In this document: piece by piece, positions 15,407 through 32,938 of the stretch
Numbering within the stretch: position 1 is the stretch's first letter
Layout: the number at the start of each line of letters is the position of its first letter
Program-made: the position numbers and the translations under genes
Notes under the pieces: generated by a model
The model's input: only the letters and a program-made list of their open reading frames with translations
The model's database searches: none
What the model was told of the DNA's origin: nothing
Assembly (NCBI GenBank): GCA_937931785.1
Contig: CALHAX010000075.1
Coordinates: 1-33,797, forward strand
Length of the DNA stretch: 33,797 bases
Direction of reading: 5' to 3'
Source of the DNA: an uncultured Hyphomicrobiaceae bacterium
Lineage (GTDB): Bacteria; Pseudomonadota; Alphaproteobacteria; Rhizobiales; CALHAX01

Positions 15407-15733
15407 GGGGTGAGGTCTTGCGAGCCGGAAGGCCTGCTGCAACAGGCAGCGTGGCTTGATGGCAACCCTTTCAGACCTGTGCACCCTGATGGGCGTACAA
15501 GTAGATAGGACGTGTTTCACATACGGTCTATCGCAAGTGAAGACAAGAAGGTGCGACGAGGAAAGGCAGATCGATCTGCAAAAATCCGGCGACTCACTTC
15601 AATGAGCTACAAGACATTGGTTATGGATAAGGATTGGTTAACAGCGCGCCTGGTGTTCCTTGGGGCATGCGAACAACTGGTCCGCGCTTGCACGTTGGTT
15701 AGGGTTTCATTGGTGTCGGTTTTGAGGGCGGAT

Positions 15734-16990
15734 GTGCATTTGGCAAGGCGTTCAAATGGCCGTTGCAGGAGGTTTGGGCAAACCACGCCGGTCGGAAATC
15801 TGATTGTTGTAGCGCTTGTGGCTCTTCTCCTGCCGGTTCGGGTGGAAGCTGCGGATGCGGTCATGACGGCGCTTGAACTGCAGCAACAGGGAGATAACAC
15901 GGTTGTGGTGCTGCGACTGAGCAAGCCTGCACAGTTTCGCGTTGTAACCCTGCCTGATCCGTACCGGGTCGTTGTCGATCTTGCCCGTGTTGATTTCCCT
16001 GCTACTCCGGCCACACAAGCGCTTGGTGTTGTGAAAGCTTTTCGTTACGGCCAGTTTGTCGAAGGAAAGTTGCGAATTGTGCTGGATACGGATGGTCCTG
16101 CAAGAGTGGTCCGTACCGGTGCAGCCCAGATCAAGGGGGGGGCTGAGGTTCGAATCGTGCTCTCAACCACCACTGAACATGCTTTTGGCAAGATCTATCG
16201 TCGGCGCAAACGGCGCGAGGCCATTAACAGGCAGGATGCGGAAGCATGGGCGGCGGTGGCCGAACCGGCCGTGAAACCCAAGGATGGCAAGAAAGTCATC
16301 GTCATTGATCCGGGACATGGCGGGGTCGACCCAGGAGCATTGGCTGCGGGACGCACGCTCGAGAAGAACATTGTTCTGGCCTTCGCACATGAACTCAGAA
16401 AGACGCTGATGGGCTCTGGACGTTACGTTGTGCACATGACGCGGACGAAGGATGTGTTTGTGCCCCTCAAAAAACGCGTTGAGTTTGCGCGACGCCATCA
16501 CGCTGATCTGTTCATATCTATTCATGCCGATAGCGTGACTGACAAGCAGTATGCGACAGTCTCCGGTACAACGGTCTACACATTGTCTGACGAGGGATCC
16601 GATCTGGCTGCCCAAGAGTTTGCGGCACGTGAGAATCAGTCGGATGTTCTGGCCGGCGTTGAGGTGCCAGACCCTTCTGACGCGCTGACGTCCATCCTGA
16701 TCGAGTTGGCGCAGCGTGAAACCAACGCCCGTTCGGAGCGTTTTGCGCGAACGGCACTTGGACAAATACGAAAAGCCACGCGGCTCAGTCGAGGGCCGCA
16801 TCGCTCTGCCGGGTTCGCGGTGCTGAAAGCTCCTGATATTCCTTCGGTTCTGATCGAACTCGGATATCTCAGCAATGCGTTCGACGCCCAGCAACTCAAA
16901 TCACCGATCTGGCGTGCGGCCGTTTCGCGTTCTTTGGCGCGTTCTATTGCGCGTTACTTCAAGCAACAGGACAAGGTTGCTCCATTCTGA
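15734..16990 (+). CDS. amiC: N-acetylmuramoyl-L-alanine amidase with AMIN domain (AmiC type)
   Basis: Periplasmic zinc amidase that removes stem peptides from peptidoglycan during cell separation. Seen: a signal peptide with hydrophobic core NLIVVALVALLLP and cleavage near VEA-ADA, an AMIN domain (from LELQQQGDNTVVVLRLSKPAQF), and an Amidase_3 domain with the zinc ligands in IDPGHGG, LEKN and SIHAD and the catalytic Glu in LIELGYLSN. The start is uncertain. The frame is open from 15512, with ATGs at 15602 and 15623 lacking ribosome sites; GTG 15734 has GAGGG just before it and gives a normal signal peptide (418 aa), so I chose it. An Arg pair precedes the hydrophobic core, but the Tat motif is imperfect. 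Followed by two PBP1A genes. Confidence 0.93.
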   Translation: MHLARRSNGRCRRFGQTTPVGNLIVVALVALLLPVRVEAADAVMTALELQQQGDNTVVVLRLSKPAQFRVVTLPDPYRVVVDLARVDFPATPATQALGVVKAFRYGQFVEGKLRIVLDTDGPARVVRTGAAQIKGGAEVRIVLSTTTEHAFGKIYRRRKRREAINRQDAEAWAAVAEPAVKPKDGKKVIVIDPGHGGVDPGALAAGRTLEKNIVLAFAHELRKTLMGSGRYVVHMTRTKDVFVPLKKRVEFARRHHADLFISIHADSVTDKQYATVSGTTVYTLSDEGSDLAAQEFAARENQSDVLAGVEVPDPSDALTSILIELAQRETNARSERFARTALGQIRKATRLSRGPHRSAGFAVLKAPDIPSVLIELGYLSNAFDAQQLKSPIWRAAVSRSLARSIARYFKQQDKVAPF

Positions 16991-17229
16991 GACCCGAGGC
17001 ATCAGGACCCTGTTCCGGTTTCAGGAAAGATTCGGGAATTACTGAGTGAAGAGTCATGACTTGTTGCGGTTGGGACACGCGTTTGTTCATGTTAGGTGCG
17101 TGCGCACGAGAAAGCATCGCGCCGCCCTAATTCGTGATAGTTTATCGTTGTAAGTCAGCGTCTTGTTTTCGATTGCCTCCCGGGGTTCCACTCCTACTTC
17201 CGACGATCTGCTTTACGGACCGGACAAAC

Positions 17230-19734
17230 ATGCAGCCACTGCCTCCGCCATCGGCCTTGCCGCCATCGATCTTCGCGCCGGTGATCAAGAAGCGTCGGAA
17301 GAGTCTTGTCCTGCGGTTCCTCGGGTTTGCATTTGCATTCGGGTTCATGCTGTTCCTGATTGGCGCAGCGGTCGGTGGCATCGTGTTGCTTCATACGGCC
17401 AAGGAACTTCCGAACTTCGAAGTGTTGGCGAAGTACGAACCACCGGTGATGACGCGGGTTCATGCCAATGACGGACGTTTGATCGCCGAGTATGCGCACG
17501 AGCGGCGGATCTATGTTCCGGTCAACACGATCCCCAAGCTGGTTATCGAGGCGTACCTTTCTGCCGAGGACAAGAATTTCTTTGAACACAAGGGACTGGA
17601 CTATGCAGGTATTGCGCGCGCGGTTCTGATCAAGGCCAAAGGTGGTCGCCTGACCGGTGCGTCAACGATCACCCAACAGGTCGCCAAGAACTTTCTTCTC
17701 ACATCGGAACGGACGTTTGACCGCAAGCTCAAGGAAGCGATACTCGCGATGCGGATTGAGCGGGCTTATTCGAAAGAGAAAATTCTCGAGCTGTATCTCA
17801 ACGAGATTTATCTTGGGCTTCGGTCTTACGGAATTGCTGCTGCGGCGCTGAACTACTACGGCAAGGAACTCGAAGATCTGACAGTTGGTGAAGCGGCTTA
17901 TCTTGCGGCTCTGCCAAAGGCGCCTGAAAATTATCATCCATTCCGCAAGACAAAGGCTGCCAAGGATCGGCGCAATTTTGTCATAAGTCGAATGCTGGCA
18001 AATGGCTTCATCACGAAAGAAGTTGCAGATCGTGAAAGGGCGCTGCCGCTGAACGTCAATCCACGCCCATTTGGTGCGCAAGTGTTCGCGGGAGAATATT
18101 TTGCCGAGGAAGTCCGGCGCACGCTGAACAAAACCTTTGGCGAAGACAAGACGGAAGGTGGCGGCCTGTCTGTGCGCACAACCATGGTTCCAAAGCTCCA
18201 GCGCATGGCAAAAAAAGCGTTGGTGGATGGTCTCGTTTCCTATGACCGGCGGCATGGCTGGCGCGGTCCTGTCAAGTCGATCGACATGTCTGGGGACTGG
18301 AATCGGGCGCTGCACAACATCGTTTTGCCTGGTGTGCTTAATCCATGGCGCATGGCCGTGGTCGTGAAAGTCGACAACAAGGATGGCCTCCTTGTTGCGC
18401 TCCGCTCCGATGCCGGGTTCATCAAGCCAACGACGAAAATTGAAGCACCTGAAATGGCGCGTGTACCGCGGTCAACGACACGCTGGGCGACGAAACGGGC
18501 GCTGAACAGATTCCTGAGTCCTGGCGATGTCATCTACGTTGCACCCAATACCAAGAAAAATGGCGATGTTATCGCCGGTGAATGGAAGTTGATGCAGAAG
18601 CCAGCGGTCGACGGTGGGATCGTCGCAATGGATCCGCATACTGGCCGTGTACTGGCTTTGGTCGGGGGCTTCACGTTCGGTCTTTGGGATAACGGTGGGG
18701 ACCAGTTCAACCGGGCAACGGATGCGCAACGCCAACCGGGGTCCTCATTCAAACCTCTGGTTTATGCGACCGCGATCGACAACGGATACACACCGTCTAC
18801 CATCGTTCTCGATGCGCCGATCGCAATCGATCAGGGTGGTGATCTTGGTATCTGGAAACCTTCAAACTACGGAAAAAAATTCTACGGCCCGTCCACGTTG
18901 CGAACAGGGATCGTTCGCTCGCGGAATCTTATGACGGTGCGGTTGGCACGAGATCTCGGAATGCCACTTATTGCCGAATATGCGCGGCGTTTCGGAGTTT
19001 ATGACAACTTGCTGCCGGTTCTTTCCATGTCATTGGGTGCAGGCGAGACAACACTGCTCAAGATGGTCAACAGCTACGCGATGCTCGCCAATGGCGGGAA
19101 ACAGGTTCAAGCTTCACTGATCGATCGCATACAAGACCGCTATGGTCGTACCGTGTGGCGTCATGATCAAAGGTCCTGCAGAACATGTGATCAAGGCGAG
19201 TGGCAAGGTCAGGATGAGCCCGAGCTTGAAGATGCTCGACGACAGATCATCGATCCTCATACCGCATACCAGATGACATCAATCATGGAAGATGTTGTCC
19301 AGCGCGGCACGGGGCAACGTGTAAAGGCTGTCGGCAAACCGATTGCCGGGAAAACGGGAACGACGAACGAGGAAAAAGACGCTTGGTTCGTCGGGTTTTC
19401 TCCCGATCTGGTTGTTGGCGTTTATGTTGGTTTTGATCAACCGAAGCCGATGGGCAAAGGAGAGACGGGGGGCTCTGTCGCCTCTCCGATTTTCACGAAT
19501 TTCATGAAAATGGCCCTCAAGAATGTTCCTGCCGTTCCGTTCCGGCGCCCCCCCGGTATCAAACTCATTCGCGTCGATCGTCGTACAGGTACTCGCTCAT
19601 CCGGTGGAGACTTGCTTGAAGCATTCAAGCCGGAAAATGAGCCTGCCGATGCTTCAAGTCAGTTCCTGCCGTCTTCCGAGGATGCCGATCTTTGGCTTAC
19701 GCCGGGCGTGGATGATGGCCGAGGTCTCTACTGA
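17230..19734 (+). CDS. mrcA: Penicillin-binding protein 1A, first tandem copy
   Basis: Bifunctional class A PBP: polymerises glycan strands and crosslinks stem peptides at the outer face of the inner membrane. 834 aa from ATG 17230. Seen: a Pro-rich cytoplasmic tail ending KKRRKS, one membrane segment (about residues 33-58), the glycosyltransferase domain with catalytic Glu in SAEDKNFFEHKGLD and GASTITQQVAKNF, an OB-like insert, and the transpeptidase with SxxK = SSFK (Ser 505), SRN, and KTGTTNEEKDAWFVGF. A CRTC pair lies between the SRN and KTG motifs. The start at 17134 in the same frame looks non-coding before this ATG. 239 nt separate it from amiC and 75 nt from the second copy; no terminator is visible between the copies. 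Confidence 0.95.
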   Translation: MQPLPPPSALPPSIFAPVIKKRRKSLVLRFLGFAFAFGFMLFLIGAAVGGIVLLHTAKELPNFEVLAKYEPPVMTRVHANDGRLIAEYAHERRIYVPVNTIPKLVIEAYLSAEDKNFFEHKGLDYAGIARAVLIKAKGGRLTGASTITQQVAKNFLLTSERTFDRKLKEAILAMRIERAYSKEKILELYLNEIYLGLRSYGIAAAALNYYGKELEDLTVGEAAYLAALPKAPENYHPFRKTKAAKDRRNFVISRMLANGFITKEVADRERALPLNVNPRPFGAQVFAGEYFAEEVRRTLNKTFGEDKTEGGGLSVRTTMVPKLQRMAKKALVDGLVSYDRRHGWRGPVKSIDMSGDWNRALHNIVLPGVLNPWRMAVVVKVDNKDGLLVALRSDAGFIKPTTKIEAPEMARVPRSTTRWATKRALNRFLSPGDVIYVAPNTKKNGDVIAGEWKLMQKPAVDGGIVAMDPHTGRVLALVGGFTFGLWDNGGDQFNRATDAQRQPGSSFKPLVYATAIDNGYTPSTIVLDAPIAIDQGGDLGIWKPSNYGKKFYGPSTLRTGIVRSRNLMTVRLARDLGMPLIAEYARRFGVYDNLLPVLSMSLGAGETTLLKMVNSYAMLANGGKQVQASLIDRIQDRYGRTVWRHDQRSCRTCDQGEWQGQDEPELEDARRQIIDPHTAYQMTSIMEDVVQRGTGQRVKAVGKPIAGKTGTTNEEKDAWFVGFSPDLVVGVYVGFDQPKPMGKGETGGSVASPIFTNFMKMALKNVPAVPFRRPPGIKLIRVDRRTGTRSSGGDLLEAFKPENEPADASSQFLPSSEDADLWLTPGVDDGRGLY

Positions 19735-19809
19735 TCGTGTTTACTCTATGGACAACGCGGACGGATCAAGGTTCCGCTGCCGTCGTGTCTCGAGGTTCAG
19801 GTTTTTGCC

Positions 19810-22305
19810 ATGACACCTAATGCTTCGCTTCCCGTGTCTGTGTTCCAGCCCAAGGTCAAACGCAGCAAGAGTTTGTTGTTGCGTTTCCTTGGCTTCAGTT
19901 TTGGCGTTGGCTGTATTCTATTCGTGATCGGCGCTGCTGCCGTCGGCGTCATATTGCTGCATACGGCGAAAGAATTGCCGGATTTTGAAGTGCTTGCGAA
20001 ATATGAGCCTTCGGTCATGACGCGCGTGCACGCTGGCGATGGTCGTCTGATTGCTGAATATGCCAGCCAGCGCCGTATTTTCGTGCCTGTGAATACAATC
20101 CCCAAAACAGTGATTGCAGCGTATCTTTCGGCAGAAGATAAAAATTTCTTCAAGCATCAGGGGATCGATTACCTTGGTATTGCACGCGCAGTTGTGAATA
20201 AGCTCAAGGGGGGACGGTTGACTGGGGCATCCACGATCACACAGCAGGTTGCAAAGAATTTTCTCCTAACATCGGAACGCACGTTCGACCGCAAACTCAA
20301 AGAGGCTATTCTTGCGCTGAGAATTGAGCAGGCATACTCCAAGGAAAAAATACTCGAACTCTATCTCAATGAGATTTATCTCGGATTGCGCTCGTACGGA
20401 ATCGCGGCGGCTGCGCTCAACTACTATGGCAAAGAGCTCAAGAACCTGACGATCGGGGAAGCCGCGTATCTTGCGGCTCTCCCCAAGGCGCCTGAGAATT
20501 ATCATCCGATCCGCAAGTTGAAAGCCGCAACGATCAGAAGAAACTTTGTCCTGAACCGGATGGCTGCCAATGGGTACATCTCCAAGGAAGAGGCCGAGCG
20601 GGAGAAGGCTCTGCCGCTGACGGTCAACCCGCGTCAGTTTGGAGCGCAGTTGTTTGCCGGGGAGTATTTTGCGGAAGAAGTGCGCCGGAATCTTGTCGGG
20701 CTATTCGGTGAAGCGAAGACCCAGAGCGGCGGCCTGTCAGTCCGCACGACCATGGAACCCCAGTTGCAGCAGATGGCCAAACGGGCGTTGGTCAACGGTC
20801 TGGTTGGCTACGACCGTCGTCACGGTTGGCGCGGTCCGGTCAAGACGATCGATCTGTCCGGAGATTGGAACCGCGCGTTGCATAACATCGTTTTGCCTGG
20901 CGTGATTGATCCGTGGCGAATGGCCGTTGTCCTCAGGGTGGACAATGCAGCCGGATTGCAAATCGCACTGCGCTCAACCGCAGGGCGGATCAACCGGACG
21001 ACTGCTATCAAAGCGCCGGACGCAGGTATCGTCCCTGTCGATACAACAACGTGGACGAAACAGAAAACCCTCGCGAGCTTCCTGAAACCTGGGGATGTTA
21101 TTTACGTTGCGCCGAACACGCGAGAGAACGGGCAAGCCATTCCGGGGGAATGGAAGCTCATGCAGAAGCCGGCGGTGGATGGTGCAATCGTCGCCATGAA
21201 TCCGCATACGGGACGTGTGCTGGCACTGGTTGGCGGGTTTACGTTTGGGCTATGGCAGGACGGAGACCAGTTCAACCGCGCTATCGATGCCCGCCGCCAG
21301 CCGGGTTCGGCTTTCAAGCCACTCGTTTACGCAGCGGCGCTCGATAATGGTTACATGCCGACAACGATCATCAGTGCTGCGCCACTGGTTATTAATCAGG
21401 GCAATGGCCAGGATGACTGGCGGCCACTTGAATATAGCGGAAAATTCTATGGGCCCGCGACGTTGAGGAAGGGCATTGTCTCGTCACGCAACCTCATGAC
21501 CGTGCGTCTTGCGAACACGCTTGGCATGCCACTGGTGGCGGATTATGCCAGACGCTTCGGTGTGTACGATAATTTGCGTCCGTTATTGTCGATGTCTCTG
21601 GGGGCGGGGGAGACCACTCTTCTGCGCATGGTCAACGCCTACGCCATGTTGGCCAATGGTGGCCGCGAGGTTCAACCCACCTTGATCGACCGGATACAAG
21701 ATCGATATGGACGTACGGTCTGGCGGCATGATCAGCGCGGTTGCCAGAATTGCCTGCAACCCGAATGGCAAGGACAGGATGAGCCTGAGCTTGGCGACGC
21801 ACGGGCACAGGTGGTCAATCCAATAACGGCATATCAGATGACGTCGATTATGGAAGATGTGGTGCAACGCGGTACAGGCAAGAAGGTCAAGGTTGTTGGT
21901 AAGCCATTGGCCGGGAAGACCGGTACGACGAACGACCAGAAAGATGCATGGTTTGTCGGGTATTCGTCAGATCTTGTGGTTGGCGTTTATATTGGGTTCG
22001 ATAGCCCGAAGAACATGGGTAAAGGCGAGACGGGTGGTGGTTTGGCAGCCCCGATCTTTGCCGATTTCATGAAAATGGCGTTGGCGGATACACCGGCCGC
22101 ACCGTTTCGTCATCCAACAGGCGTCAAACTGATCCGTGTGGATCGCCGCTCCGGCGTGCGCACCCAATCTACGGATCCCAATGGGACCGTTCTTGAGGCA
22201 TTCAAGCCCGAAAACGAACCGTCAGACGATCCTGGATTGTTATTGCCTGCGGATGCGGAAAGTGTGAGCACGTCCGGTCTTGGCGATGGACGCGGGCTTT
22301 ATTGA
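19810..22305 (+). CDS. Penicillin-binding protein 1A, second tandem copy
   Basis: A full-length paralogue (831 aa) of the gene just upstream, aligning over its whole length with roughly three quarters of residues identical by eye. All catalytic motifs are intact: SAEDKNFFKHQGID and GASTITQQVAKNF for glycosyltransfer; SAFK (Ser 500), SRN and KTGTTNDQKDAWFVGY for transpeptidation. It keeps the CxxC pair (CQNC here) and the same GDGRGLY-type C-terminus. The cytoplasmic tail is the main difference: it lacks the Pro-run of copy 1 and reads MTPNASLPVSVF before the basic stretch. Synonymous positions differ widely, so the duplication is old rather than an assembly artefact. Followed 88 nt later by prfB. 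Confidence 0.95.
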   Translation: MTPNASLPVSVFQPKVKRSKSLLLRFLGFSFGVGCILFVIGAAAVGVILLHTAKELPDFEVLAKYEPSVMTRVHAGDGRLIAEYASQRRIFVPVNTIPKTVIAAYLSAEDKNFFKHQGIDYLGIARAVVNKLKGGRLTGASTITQQVAKNFLLTSERTFDRKLKEAILALRIEQAYSKEKILELYLNEIYLGLRSYGIAAAALNYYGKELKNLTIGEAAYLAALPKAPENYHPIRKLKAATIRRNFVLNRMAANGYISKEEAEREKALPLTVNPRQFGAQLFAGEYFAEEVRRNLVGLFGEAKTQSGGLSVRTTMEPQLQQMAKRALVNGLVGYDRRHGWRGPVKTIDLSGDWNRALHNIVLPGVIDPWRMAVVLRVDNAAGLQIALRSTAGRINRTTAIKAPDAGIVPVDTTTWTKQKTLASFLKPGDVIYVAPNTRENGQAIPGEWKLMQKPAVDGAIVAMNPHTGRVLALVGGFTFGLWQDGDQFNRAIDARRQPGSAFKPLVYAAALDNGYMPTTIISAAPLVINQGNGQDDWRPLEYSGKFYGPATLRKGIVSSRNLMTVRLANTLGMPLVADYARRFGVYDNLRPLLSMSLGAGETTLLRMVNAYAMLANGGREVQPTLIDRIQDRYGRTVWRHDQRGCQNCLQPEWQGQDEPELGDARAQVVNPITAYQMTSIMEDVVQRGTGKKVKVVGKPLAGKTGTTNDQKDAWFVGYSSDLVVGVYIGFDSPKNMGKGETGGGLAAPIFADFMKMALADTPAAPFRHPTGVKLIRVDRRSGVRTQSTDPNGTVLEAFKPENEPSDDPGLLLPADAESVSTSGLGDGRGLY

Positions 22306-22393
22306 TGCGTTTGACGTCGCGTCGGCGTTGCGGTCCGCATCACAAAAGCCTATAGCGCCTTAAATCATCCCTTTGAAATTCGGAGATTTCGCC

Positions 22394-23525
22394 ATGCGGG
22401 CCGAAGCGCAAAATCTTGTCGATGAAATCAAGGAGTGCCTGGCGCTTCTGAGGAGGCATCTTTGACTGGGATGTCGCCAACGACCGCCTCGGAGAACTGA
22501 ACGCACGGGTTGAGGATCCAGACCTTTGGTCAGATGCCGCCAAGGCCCAACGCATCATGCGAGAGCGCCAGTATCTCGATACGGCTATCACGTCTTACAA
22601 GGACGTCGCCCAGCAGCTCGAAGACAACGTCGAGATGATTGCACTGGGAGAGGCTGAGGGCGATACCGCGATCATCGATGAAAGCGAAGCGGCTCTTCGG
22701 ATTTTGCTGGAAACGGTTCAGAAGCGTCAACTGGAGGCGCTGCTATCGGGCGAGGCCGATGGCAATGACTGTTTCGTCGAACTTCACTCCGGTGCCGGTG
22801 GGACAGAAAGCCAGGACTGGACCCAGATGTTGCTGAGGATGTACACGCGCTGGGGGGAACGTCGCGGTTACAAGACCGAGCTTGTGGAGGTCACGCCTGG
22901 TGACGAAGCGGGCCTTAAATCTGCGACGTTGCAACTGAAAGGCGAAAACGCTTACGGATGGCTCAAGACCGAATCCGGTGTGCATCGACTTGTGCGTATC
23001 TCTCCGTTCGACTCGAATGCACGTCGACACACAAGCTTTGCCTCAGCCTGGATTTTTCCAGTTATTGATGACAGCATCGAAGTTGATGTTGTGGAAAGTG
23101 AATGCCGGATTGATACATACCGTGCCAGCGGTGCTGGCGGACAGCATGTCAATACGACAGACAGTGCGGTTCGTATCACGCACGAACCGTCAGGCATTGT
23201 GGTGCAGTGTCAGAGCGAGCGCTCGCAGCATAAAAACCGTGCCACGGCCTGGAATATGCTCCGCGCCCGCCTGTACGAACTCGAGTTGAAGAAACGAGAA
23301 GAGGCGGCACAGGCTGAAGCTGAGTCAAAGACCGAAATCGGTTGGGGACATCAGATCAGATCGTACGTTCTGCAGCCCTACCAGTTGGTCAAGGACTTAA
23401 GAACGGGGGTCGAAAGCGGAACGCCGTCGGCCGTTCTGGACGGCGACATTGACGCATTTATCGAAGCATCACTTGCCAACCGTCTCGAGGGGGGTGTTGG
23501 CGGTGAGGTTGAGGATCTGGAGTAA
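22394..23525 (+). CDS. prfB: Peptide chain release factor 2, with +1 programmed frameshift
   Basis: Ends translation at UGA and UAA. The first frame runs ATG 22394 to a UGA at 22463-22465; continuous coding needs a +1 shift after CTT (22460-22462), skipping T22463, then GAC TGG GAT onward to 23525, giving 376 aa. The site, AGG AGG CAT CTT TGA C, has the internal Shine-Dalgarno-like AGGAGG and the CUU-UGA-C of the classical prfB autoregulatory frameshift at the same spacing. Seen downstream: the stop-codon-reading SPF motif in [15 protein letters not shown] and the catalytic GGQ in [15 protein letters not shown] lies before the start ATG. Frameshifting rises when RF2 is scarce, so the gene regulates itself. 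Convergent with bactofilin. Confidence 0.97.
22451..22466 (+). promoter_or_regulatory. prfB +1 recoding site
   Basis: AGGAGG (22451-22456), CAT, CTT, then TGA and C. The internal Shine-Dalgarno-like hexamer and the slippery CTT before the weak stop TGAC match the conserved RF2 recoding signal. Confidence 0.95.
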
Positions 23526-23619: not shown

Positions 23620-24234
23620 TCAGTTGGTTGCAATCAGACCTGCACCAGCAGAGCCCTTACCGTTTGAAGCTGATGCGTCGCTCGACAGGGATGTCGAAAA
23701 TGCGTTGCTTGAAGATGTCGTTGTCCGATCAGATTGTTTTGGCGCCTCGGCGACCGGGTTTTCAGACCGGCGGGACTTGCCTTCGAAGAACGCGCCCTGC
23801 TCGATTGCGAGAGACTGATGATACACATCGCCTTCGATATGCGACGACGACTGCAACGTTACATTTGACCCACGGATGGAGCCCATGACCTTGCCTTGAA
23901 CGGTCACGGTTTCGGCAATCACGTTGCCCGTTACTTTCGCGGTTTGACCGACTGTAAGTGTTTTACACTCGATATCGCCTTCGATCTCTCCATCGACCTG
24001 CACTTCCCCATTGGAAATTGCGTGCCCGGTGATCTTGAAATCCGCGCCGATTACTGTGGGAGCCATGGTCGTCGTCCTTGCCGTTTGCTGTTGTGCGTTG
24101 GGTGCCGTTGCTTGAGGCACATGCCCAGCAGGAGGCGTCGGGGCCGGAGCTGGGTTTGTTGGAAAATTCGGTGTTTGTGCGTCGGTGGACGCTGCCGGGA
24201 ATTGGCCCTGCGGCTCGGGCTTTCTCGAAAACAT
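23620..24234 (-). CDS. Bactofilin (polymer-forming cytoskeletal protein)
   Basis: Self-assembling beta-helical cytoskeletal protein; in other alphaproteobacteria bactofilins position peptidoglycan enzymes at stalks, buds or curved sites. 204 aa from ATG 24234. Seen: a Pro/Gln/Thr-rich N-terminal tail (residues 1-60), then the DUF583 core made of short repeats such as VIGADFKITGHAISNGEVQVDG, EGDIECKTLTVGQTAKVTGNV, TVQGKVMGSIRGSNVTLQ and HIEGDVYHQSLAIEQGAFFEG, then a Ser-rich tail. No nucleotide-binding motif, as expected. The start at 24234 (MFSRKPEP) is chosen over 24264, which adds a sequence unlike the family. A metallopeptidase partner often found beside bactofilin genes is not adjacent here. 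Confidence 0.93.
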   Translation of the reverse strand: MFSRKPEPQGQFPAASTDAQTPNFPTNPAPAPTPPAGHVPQATAPNAQQQTARTTTMAPTVIGADFKITGHAISNGEVQVDGEIEGDIECKTLTVGQTAKVTGNVIAETVTVQGKVMGSIRGSNVTLQSSSHIEGDVYHQSLAIEQGAFFEGKSRRSENPVAEAPKQSDRTTTSSSNAFSTSLSSDASASNGKGSAGAGLIATN

Positions 24235-24439
24235 TGGCAATCGCCTGTCGTTACAGCAGGACACCGTTCAACACGTGTAACGCGCTGTGGCCCCCCGGCA
24301 AAATTACGCTACGTTGCAACCAGTACCCGACTTTTGAATACGGCTTGCGACCGATGCTCGGCAGATACGTGATGACTGTGACAAGATATCGACGTCTCTG
24401 TGAAAAGTCACTTGAAATCGTGGAAACTACGTATTCGAA

Positions 24440-25243
24440 TCATCCTGTAATCGACGCGAGTGGTTTGTAGAATCCGGGCGTAAGGCCTGCTTGTGATCGT
24501 GCCTTATCGTTGAACGGAGGTTTGAGCGGCCCGCGAAAATACTTGCGCACGAGATGATGAAATGTCGGCATGGGTTCAATGTTCTTGCGTGCGCAAAGGA
24601 AGTTGAACCATTTAAGACCGAATGCGACGTGCCTCTTCTCGTCATTGTAGATGATCTCAAGAATCCGGGCGGAGTCGGTGTCGCCGTGTGACTTCATTTT
24701 CTCGAGCATGGCCGGGCCCACATCCAGACCGCGCGCTTCGAGAACGAGCGGGACGATTGCCATGCGGGCAATCAGGTCGTGTCCTGTGTCATGCGATGTT
24801 TGCCAAAGTCCATCATGTGCCGGCAGGTCACCATAGTGCGAGCCAAGCGCTTCAAGGCGGCGGCAGAGCAGTTCGAAATGTTTGGCTTCTTCCACACCAA
24901 CGCGCACCCAATCATCATAGTAGGAATTGGGAAGATCGTAGGCACCTGATCGCGCAATGAGATCCCAGGTCATGTCGATTGCGCTCAGTTCAATATGCGC
25001 AAGGGAATGGAGCAGGGCGATGCGTCCCTTGAGGCCTGCTGTCGTTCGGCGCGGCATGGCGCGAGGGAGTAGCAACTCCGGCTTGTCGGGACGGCCGGGG
25101 GTGGCTGGCAGATGCAGGTTGGTCAGCGTACCGCGCGACAGGCGACGATGGTGCCAGGCTTTTGCGGTGTTTTTCGCGAGTGCAACTTTCGCGTCGAGGT
25201 CGCACTCGCGAACGATATTTATGGCAGAACTCATGAGCGTCAT
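24440..25243 (-). CDS. DUF455 ferritin-like domain protein
   Basis: A 267-aa protein of the DUF455 family, predicted to have a ferritin-like four-helix bundle with a di-iron site; function unknown. Seen: LHSLAHIELSAIDMTWDLIAR, with the Glu and His of an ExxH-like ligand set, GVEEAKHFELLCRRLEALGSHYGD, with Glu and His ligands (EExxH pattern), MLEARGLDVGP-type segment (VLEARGLDVGPAM), and IYNDEKRHVAFGLKWF with the last EKRH ligand group. These spaced Glu/His motifs support metal binding. Start ATG 25243; an ATG at 25234 is equally possible, neither with a clear ribosome site. It is 49 nt downstream of the DUF805 gene on the same strand, so probably co-transcribed. Confidence 0.88.
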   Translation of the reverse strand: MTLMSSAINIVRECDLDAKVALAKNTAKAWHHRRLSRGTLTNLHLPATPGRPDKPELLLPRAMPRRTTAGLKGRIALLHSLAHIELSAIDMTWDLIARSGAYDLPNSYYDDWVRVGVEEAKHFELLCRRLEALGSHYGDLPAHDGLWQTSHDTGHDLIARMAIVPLVLEARGLDVGPAMLEKMKSHGDTDSARILEIIYNDEKRHVAFGLKWFNFLCARKNIEPMPTFHHLVRKYFRGPLKPPFNDKARSQAGLTPGFYKPLASITG

Positions 25244-31726: not shown

Positions 31727-31825
31727 GATCACAGGAATCTGGAATGATGGGGAGTTGGTGTTTGCCCCTGAGCTGTGGGCGGTTTAGCAGGCGCGAAGGT
31801 TTGTGTGAACGCGAAAGGTTCTTTC

Positions 31826-32938
31826 ATGACCGAAACAATGCATGCCATCGGACTGATGAGCGGGACGTCGATGGACGGTATCGACGTCGCACTCGTCGAG
31901 ACGGACGGCAAGTCTCTTGTTCGACCTGTTGCGAACTTCTCGCGCGCTTACACTTCAGTCCAGCGACAGACGATTGCGAAAGCACTGGTTGTTGCTCGGG
32001 ATGTGACTGACCGCACGGAGAGACCACCTGTTCTGGCCGAGGTTGAGGCGTTGATCACACAGGCGCACGCCGATGCTGTCACGGCATTCCTTGCGGAGCA
32101 GAGTATTTCGGCATCCTCTATCGACCTGATCGGATTTCACGGTCAGACCGTTCTGCATCGCCCTGATCTTGGCTTGACGATACAGCTCGGCGACGGTCAG
32201 GCGCTCGCAGATGCAACCGGTATCGACGTGGTGTTCGATATGCGCGCAGCAGACATGGCCGCTGGGGGGCAGGGTGCGCCTCTCGCTCCTGTGTTCCATC
32301 AGGCATTGGCGCAGGGGGTGCCAGGGTGGCCGGTTGCTTTCCTGAATGTCGGTGGGGTTGCGAATGTTACCTGGATCGGGCGAGACGGAAAGTTGCTTGC
32401 CTTTGATACCGGACCCGGCAACGCCCTGATCGATGACTTCGTGCGGGCGCACTCAAATGCCAATCAGGATGAAGGGGGGGGATTCGCACAGGCTGGAGTG
32501 GTTCACGACGACGCGTTGCACGATCTTCTTATGTCTCCGTATTTTGCAGCTTTGCCCCCAAAGTCTCTGGACAGGAATACCTTCGATCCCTCGCCCGTGC
32601 AGAACCTGTCCTTACATGACGGGGCGGCGACCCTCACCGCTTTTACAGCGGAAGCTGTTGCGCGGGCGCGGAATTTTTTTATGGAGAGTCCGGGGGTGTG
32701 GGTCGTGTGCGGCGGTGGACGTCACAACGCGGCAATCATGTGTGCGCTTGCTGAGCGGATGGACGGCCTCGTTGCGCCCGCAGAGGCGTTCCGGCTGAAC
32801 GGCGACATGCTTGAGGCGCAGGCGTTTGCATACCTTGCGGTACGTTCAGTCCGTGGCCTCCCGCTGTCGTTTCCAACAACGACGGGGGTGGAGGAGCCAA
32901 TGTGTGGCGGTGTGGTTGCGGCTGTACGTGCGCGCTAG
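31826..32938 (+). CDS. anmK: Anhydro-N-acetylmuramic acid kinase
   Basis: Phosphorylates and opens 1,6-anhydro-MurNAc during peptidoglycan recycling, giving MurNAc-6-phosphate. 370 aa from ATG 31826, the normal size. Seen: IGLMSGTSMDGIDVALVE at the N-terminus (ATP phosphate loop), DLIGFHGQTVLHRP, FDMRAADMAAGGQGAPLAP with the catalytic Asp region, FLNVGGVANVTWI, FDTGPGNALIDD, and WVVCGGGRHN near the C-terminus. AAAGG precedes the ATG; a longer frame to 31775 adds a sequence not expected for the family. An uninterrupted run of eight Gs (32474-32481) lies in the gene. Its stop codon overlaps that of the convergent phzF pseudogene. Confidence 0.96.
   Translation: MTETMHAIGLMSGTSMDGIDVALVETDGKSLVRPVANFSRAYTSVQRQTIAKALVVARDVTDRTERPPVLAEVEALITQAHADAVTAFLAEQSISASSIDLIGFHGQTVLHRPDLGLTIQLGDGQALADATGIDVVFDMRAADMAAGGQGAPLAPVFHQALAQGVPGWPVAFLNVGGVANVTWIGRDGKLLAFDTGPGNALIDDFVRAHSNANQDEGGGFAQAGVVHDDALHDLLMSPYFAALPPKSLDRNTFDPSPVQNLSLHDGAATLTAFTAEAVARARNFFMESPGVWVVCGGGRHNAAIMCALAERMDGLVAPAEAFRLNGDMLEAQAFAYLAVRSVRGLPLSFPTTTGVEEPMCGGVVAAVRAR

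Follow-up and report, generated by a model that had tools for sequence, protein, structure and literature searches.

Introduction

The closest described counterparts of the proteins studied here are PBP1a of Agrobacterium tumefaciens and MrcA1 of Sinorhizobium meliloti. Both enzymes are reported to be essential for polar growth in bacteria that have no Rod complex, with Agrobacterium PBP1a taking over from RodA and PBP2, which are absent there (PMC8546619). According to a 2025 paper, pbp2 and mreB were lost at a single node in the Rhizobiales (PMC12130487).

A second point of comparison is the pair of class A penicillin-binding proteins (PBPs) of Escherichia coli, PBP1a and PBP1b, which are old and distant subfamilies encoded at separate loci. 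Work on their contribution to fitness across pH indicates that class A PBPs that look redundant may work best under different conditions (PMC6456298).

Here, we describe two mrcA genes in tandem in a window of 33,797 nucleotides, the whole stretch of DNA that was analyzed. The window is one entire contig (C75). It comes from a draft genome (G000) of 3.66 Mb in 134 contigs, 99.27% complete and 0.18% contaminated, which its nearest named relatives place in the order Rhizobiales/Hyphomicrobiales. The usually single mrcA of the order is, we assume, probably the same gene as that for Agrobacterium PBP1a. The window copies resemble Agrobacterium PBP1a and Sinorhizobium MrcA1 in belonging to the PBP1A family and to the same order (PMC8546619). 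Unlike Agrobacterium and Sinorhizobium, the window genome encodes MreB, MreC, PBP2, and RodA and has two PBP1A copies in tandem. Like E. coli PBP1a and PBP1b, the two products are seemingly redundant bifunctional synthases that may be condition specific (PMC6456298), but they form a tandem pair of one subfamily. Among open-licence PMC papers searched by title and abstract opening, we found no report of a tandem or duplicated mrcA or PBP1A.

Results

Two complete mrcA genes lie between amiC and prfB

Both mrcA genes lie head to tail on the + strand, with amiC upstream and prfB downstream. The amiC-side gene, copy 1, spans 17230..19734 and encodes a PBP1A of 834 residues; its ATG at 17230 sits within a longer, GTG-started frame that opens at 17134. 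A spacer of 75 nt (19735..19809, +) separates it from the prfB-side gene, copy 2 (19810..22305, +), which encodes a PBP1A of 831 residues. Each protein has the GT51, OB, and transpeptidase Pfam domains, in that order. The GT51 glycosyltransferase domain is encoded at 17473..17994 (+) in copy 1 and 20041..20562 (+) in copy 2, and the transpeptidase domain at 18613..19509 (+; residues 462 to 760) and 21181..22074 (+; residues 458 to 755), respectively. Both copies exceed the PBP1A family cut-off (TIGR02074, NCBIfam; 600.5 bits for copy 1 and 599.3 for copy 2 against 508.75). Using familiar catalytic motif patterns for GT51 and transpeptidase domains, we found 8/8 patterns in each copy: five GT51 patterns, SxxK, SxN, and KTG. 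The open reading frames, family scores, domains, and motifs thus bear out the first-pass annotation, which had described two complete class A PBPs with all motifs, head to tail and 75 nt apart.

Structure prediction for copy 2 from a 26-sequence alignment gave a PBP1A-like fold (pLDDT, 79.0; pTM, 0.74), and the best PDB matches of the model were PBP1A of Haemophilus and Acinetobacter. The PBP1A structures 4oon, 3udf (Acinetobacter baumannii), and 5u2g (Haemophilus influenzae) have the same domains as copy 2 at about 30% identity. In alignments, 4oon and 3udf keep Asp523 and Asn541, whereas copy 2 lacks both.

The upstream flank, amiC (15512..16990, +; longest frame, predicted start), encodes an N-acetylmuramoyl-L-alanine amidase with Amidase_3 and AMIN domains (Pfam). 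The downstream flank, prfB (22394..23525, +), encodes release factor 2; it starts at an ATG at 22394, reaches a CTT-TGA-C shift site at 22460, and continues in the frame of the open reading frame at 22557-23525. A GGAGG-like stretch precedes the in-frame CTT-TGA-C, and the shifted frame is open through 23525. We take this arrangement to be the programmed +1 frameshift that is usual for release factor 2. Beyond prfB, the window holds a bactofilin gene (23620-24264, -) and a DUF455 gene (24440-25243, -). When 11 loci, most of them too short, were searched for these neighbors, the bactofilin gene lay downstream in L061 as well, and DUF455 in both L060 and L061. A further cell wall gene, for the anhydro-N-acetylmuramic acid kinase AnmK, lies at 31775-32938 (+).

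We scanned the spacer (19735..19809) with consensus patterns and found no terminator-like or promoter-like site, which suggests that the two copies are likely cotranscribed. Across positions 16900-22700, the promoter and terminator scans returned about as many sites as shuffled sequences (4 versus 3.2; 7 versus 6.6).

The host genome has seven GT51 places in total, the mrcA pair among them. Two further proteins, of 745 and 767 residues, exceed the PBP1A family cut-off. The remaining places encode PBP1C, a monofunctional transglycosylase, and a divergent GT51-like protein of 845 residues (C69, L201:4416-6953, +) whose GT51 match is weak (64 bits). By eye, this last protein has SxxK-like ASVGK and KTG-like AKTG motifs; GT51 is its sole Pfam match, with none to the transpeptidase domain, and it has no NCBIfam match at E ≤ 1e-20. 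Judged by these features, it is a divergent class-A-PBP-like protein.

Tandem mrcA is rare but not unique

To place the arrangement, we counted mrcA copies in the order and the class. Matches at E ≤ 1e-200 were found in 361 of the 397 genomes of the order, and seven genomes had two. The copies are in tandem in two of the 397, the window genome and G193. Three other genomes (G086, G149, and G351) keep one copy at the amiC-prfB locus and carry the second on another contig, and in G015 and G306 the copies are on separate contigs and a single flank could be seen. In the class (385 genomes), 304 genomes matched at E ≤ 1e-150. Two matches were found in three of them: the window genome and, with the copies on different contigs, G512 and G742. 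The class survey counted copy number, and the order survey also covered flanks. Both searches scored the two best candidates in nearly every genome, and a third copy would not show; because short-read assembly can merge young, identical duplicates into one, the counts of recent pairs are too low. Family f1, that of the window genome, has one genome among the listed matches (16 matchless order rows aside).

We examined the flanks of 53 loci of the order, which were the best scoring and not a random draw. All 47 loci with both amiC and prfB have one mrcA; five of the rest have one flank and one has none. For this order, these counts agree with the first-pass annotation, which had said that most alphaproteobacteria keep one mrcA before prfB. 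That annotation had also named a pair universal in the order as the outcome contrary to its reading, and the tandem arrangement in 2/397 genomes is far from that. We concluded that such pairs are rare, although the window genome is not the only one to have one. Dispersed second copies of mrcA (in G086, G149, and G351 and, in the genus g35 described below, for example in G786, G844, and G888) are another route to two PBP1A enzymes.

The two copies are sisters and diverged long ago

The two proteins are identical at 624/827 aligned residues (75.5%). Among 74 orthologues, none is nearer to either copy than the copies are to each other; the next best identities are 68% and 64%. This comparison left out L020 and L036, which are short frames with one in-frame stop each, and L059, which is identical to L014. 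In a careful maximum-likelihood tree of 36 rows, the copies form a sister pair with support of 100/100. The stem of the pair is 0.34 long, and the branches are 0.13 for copy 1 and 0.30 for copy 2. Grouping copy 1 with the nearest outside relative, L009, was rejected (p-AU, 1.5e-55). The copies are also alike in base composition (GC, 54.8 and 55.2%; GC3, 59 and 61%).

Both copies share unusual residues in the transpeptidase domain. S491D and Q498D (copy 1 numbering) are common to the two. The consensus residues at 491 and 498, Gln at the latter, occur in 98% and 100%, respectively, of 66 other orthologues and in 56/56 copies from g35. E562V and G688D are likewise common to both copies, at sites that are 100% conserved in the 66 others and variable in g35. 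The shared residues indicate that the duplication came after these changes. The PBP1A of the window lineage was thus already odd at conserved transpeptidase sites before it duplicated.

At 75% identity to copy 1, the second gene looks foreign at first sight, as if it had been gained by horizontal transfer from a relative. We regard this as very improbable, since the copies are sisters, no orthologue of the 74 is nearer, the unusual residues are common to both, and GC and GC3 are similar. An assembly or binning artifact might be suspected in a 134-contig draft in which the window is one whole contig. However, misjoining one gene cannot yield copies that are 68% identical in DNA, both copies are inside one contig between the expected flanks, and the same arrangement occurs in the one-contig genomes G193 and G894. 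We therefore give an artifact next to no credence.

The first-pass annotation had pointed to extensive codon-level differences, and we found that DNA identity between the copies is 68% and third-position identity is 39%. At fourfold degenerate sites, the copies agree at 31.3%, versus 27.1% by chance, which is about the agreement of either copy with orthologues of five other families (30 to 38%). The pair has a pS of 0.80 and a pN of 0.165; dS is infinite by the Jukes-Cantor correction at this pS, and dN/dS for the pair is thus undefined. We looked for gene conversion between the copies and found no tract, the longest exact run being 17 nt. Saturated synonymous sites together with the low pN indicate that the duplication is old and that purifying selection has kept both proteins. 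The annotation had proposed such maintenance, and intact motifs and frames in both copies are consistent with it.

Copy 2 has evolved faster and has changed at conserved transpeptidase sites

We compared the copies by Tajima-type relative-rate tests. Copy 2 had more unique changes than copy 1 with 15/15 outgroups, and the difference was significant (p < 0.05) with 9/15; the asymmetry was weak with outgroups L013, L015, L016, and L043 (p, 0.38 to 0.76). At 549 sites conserved in at least 6/8 relatives, copy 2 alone had changed at 44, copy 1 alone at 15, and both copies at 58 (p = 2e-4). Orthologues were nearer copy 1 in 63/74 comparisons and nearer copy 2 in 11/74. Together with the branch lengths, these comparisons indicate that copy 1 is the slower-evolving, ancestral-like gene and that copy 2 has evolved faster.

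At sites conserved in at least 90% of 74 other rows, the changes found in copy 2 only are D523A (codon 21376-21378, +), N541E (21430-21432, +), P720S (21967-21969, +), and D570T, whose site is 91% conserved. These four all lie in the transpeptidase domain and none is in GT51. At sites of the same class, copy 1 has no transpeptidase change of its own and one change in the OB domain (L379V). D523, N541, and P720 are conserved in 98 to 100% of 66 other orthologues, D523 and N541 in 100%. We looked for changes at the same residues in g35 and saw none for D523 and N541, kept in 56/56 copies, with P720 kept in 55/56.

The concentration of copy 2 changes in the transpeptidase domain is marginal (25/44 versus 233/549 sites; p = 0.056), and copy 1 changes lean the same way (10/15; p = 0.065). 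Clustering of copy 2 changes at residues 516 to 550 was not significant (p = 0.07 over all sites and 0.17 within the domain). The clearest divergence of copy 2 is at conserved transpeptidase sites, and this pattern is suggestive only, the domain bias being marginal.

Two readings other than specialization bear on these changes. The two genes could be equivalent PBP1A enzymes kept for dosage or as a back-up, with copy 2 drifting slightly faster under weaker constraint and without a new role. The intact motifs of both copies and the marginal domain bias fit this reading, as do domain-by-domain identities that lie within or at the edge of the 5 to 95% range seen for single-copy orthologue pairs at a comparable level of identity. 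On the other hand, pure redundancy would not be expected to hold two 830-residue enzymes until synonymous saturation, and copy 2 has changed D523 and N541, which are conserved in 100% of the 66 orthologues and in all 56 g35 copies. We consider dosage or back-up unlikely, though it deserves serious weight. Alternatively, copy 2 could be losing transpeptidase function and becoming mainly a glycosyltransferase enzyme that works with copy 1; its own changes at the 90% sites all fall in the transpeptidase domain. But SxxK, SxN, and KTG are intact, the frame is open, and the unusual transpeptidase residues predate the duplication in both copies, and we judge such a loss to be improbable.

The cytoplasmic tails are not exceptional

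The first-pass annotation held that the cytoplasmic tails differ most, with a Pro-run in copy 1 only, and took this to suggest different partner proteins. The tails are numerically the most different part (8/20 aligned residues identical in one alignment, 0.45 in another), but this value is at the lower edge of, and not outside, the 5 to 95% range for single-copy orthologue pairs (0.45 to 0.84; n = 81 of 86 pairs, 70 to 80% identical). The Pro-run is indeed restricted to copy 1 within the window pair, but Pro-rich tails occur in 20/51 single-copy relatives, and the run is therefore ordinary. Because the tail identity is within the normal single-copy range, we rejected tail divergence as a sign of different partners.

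Tandem pairs arose independently in genus g35

The second tandem pair of the order survey is that of G193, which belongs to genus g35 (family f35). The G193 pair is 88% identical with a dS of about 0.55 and is younger than the window pair. In the 36-row tree, it forms its own pair (100/100) far from the window pair, which points to independent duplications.

We then surveyed the genus. Of 146 g35 genomes, 145 had a match at E ≤ 1e-250 and 42 had two matches. A tandem mrcA pair at the amiC-prfB locus is found in 25/146, two of them with a shortened copy. We read 21 of these pairs as tandem from DNA, 20 with both amiC and prfB and one on a contig that ends before prfB; four more are tandem by coordinates (G790, G791, G799, and G806). 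The arrangement also occurs in one-contig genomes of the genus, such as G193 and G894 (G813 is another bearer of a pair). In the remaining 17 two-match genomes, the second copy is elsewhere or on another contig. The shortened copies are the second copy of G790 (667 residues) and the downstream copy of G806, whose open frame is 512 residues long (C1:3725597-3726991) and matches the query from residue 334. The G806 copy is possibly decaying and would lack the glycosyltransferase domain.

In a quick tree of g35, one clade (SH-aLRT, 95) unites 19 of the downstream copies; those of L183 and L184 fall elsewhere. Their position suggests that there may have been more than one duplication event within g35. 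The upstream copy of L183 was left out of this tree and of the rate tests, and L198 (G806) and L199 (G786) are labeled single-copy in the tree though their genomes hold a second copy.

As in the window, the downstream (prfB-side) copy was usually the faster one: it had more unique changes in 19/20 tested g35 pairs with each of three outgroups. The difference was significant (p < 0.05) in 19/19 with two within-genus outgroups and in 10/19 with the outside outgroup L139. These 19 pairs largely trace back to a single duplication and so amount to about one event. The exception was L184, in which the upstream copy is faster. The relative-rate data thus indicate that the prfB-side copy is usually faster in both lineages, a parallel that rests on few events. 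The g35 pairs are like the window pair in having two mrcA genes between amiC and prfB with a usually faster prfB-side copy. They differ in being separate and younger, in having different residues changed, and in that the six g35 genomes searched had no MreB over the cut-off.

Tandem mrcA occurs with and without MreB

The annotation had also suggested that the duplication could support specialized growth such as polar, budding, or stalk synthesis. In the window genome, mreB, mreC, mrdA, and rodA are in one cluster. MreB (437.2 bits), PBP2 (634.5 bits), and RodA (387.4 bits) exceed their NCBIfam cut-offs, and MreC is over its Pfam cut-off. The open reading frame at the mreD position (C78, L200:6502-7077) gave no hit in Pfam or NCBIfam under the thresholds applied. 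We rejected a Rod-less polar-growth PBP1a system for this genome because MreB, MreC, RodA, and PBP2 are all encoded.

We searched 17 genomes for MreB and found it over the cut-off in five: the window genome, G001, G024, G038, and G167. It was not over the cut-off in the six g35 genomes searched, nor in G002, G009, G016, G043, G045, and G086. Among the latter are G016 and G009, the closest to the window genome by mrcA, whose drafts are 88% and 84% complete; in G009, a fragment scored 95.9 bits. MreB is thus patchy around the window lineage, and tandem mrcA is found both in genomes that have it and in genomes that do not. The arrangement therefore does not point to polar, budding, or stalk growth, and the proposed link is unsupported.

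Discussion

Taken together, our data favor an ancient, local tandem duplication followed by asymmetric divergence, with copy 1 as the housekeeping enzyme and copy 2 as a specialized one; we hold this to be probable, with room for doubt. According to this model, the usually single mrcA of the order would have duplicated at the conserved amiC-mrcA-prfB site in the window lineage, and both genes would be read from one transcript. Both products are predicted to be membrane-anchored bifunctional synthases, in which GT51 would polymerize lipid II and the transpeptidase domain would cross-link the product. Copy 1 would keep the housekeeping PBP1A job. Copy 2 would be a sub- or neofunctionalized isoform in which the transpeptidase rather than the glycosyltransferase domain was retuned. 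The retuning may concern acceptor or donor use, contact with an activator, or working conditions such as pH.

A broader conjecture joins the two lineages. The amiC-mrcA-prfB site could be a recurrent birthplace of a second PBP1A in this order, with an amiC-side housekeeping enzyme and a prfB-side, transpeptidase-retuned partner in the same complex, arising in at least two independent events in MreB-containing and MreB-less lineages. We offer this as speculation that is considerably more likely to be wrong than right.

Natural pairs of PBP1a are of interest because this synthase drives polar elongation in Agrobacterium and Sinorhizobium and is essential there (PMC8546619). Its recurrence in a separate genus makes tandem mrcA moderately interesting. 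The window pair and the younger g35 pairs would be two natural experiments on splitting such an enzyme into two jobs.
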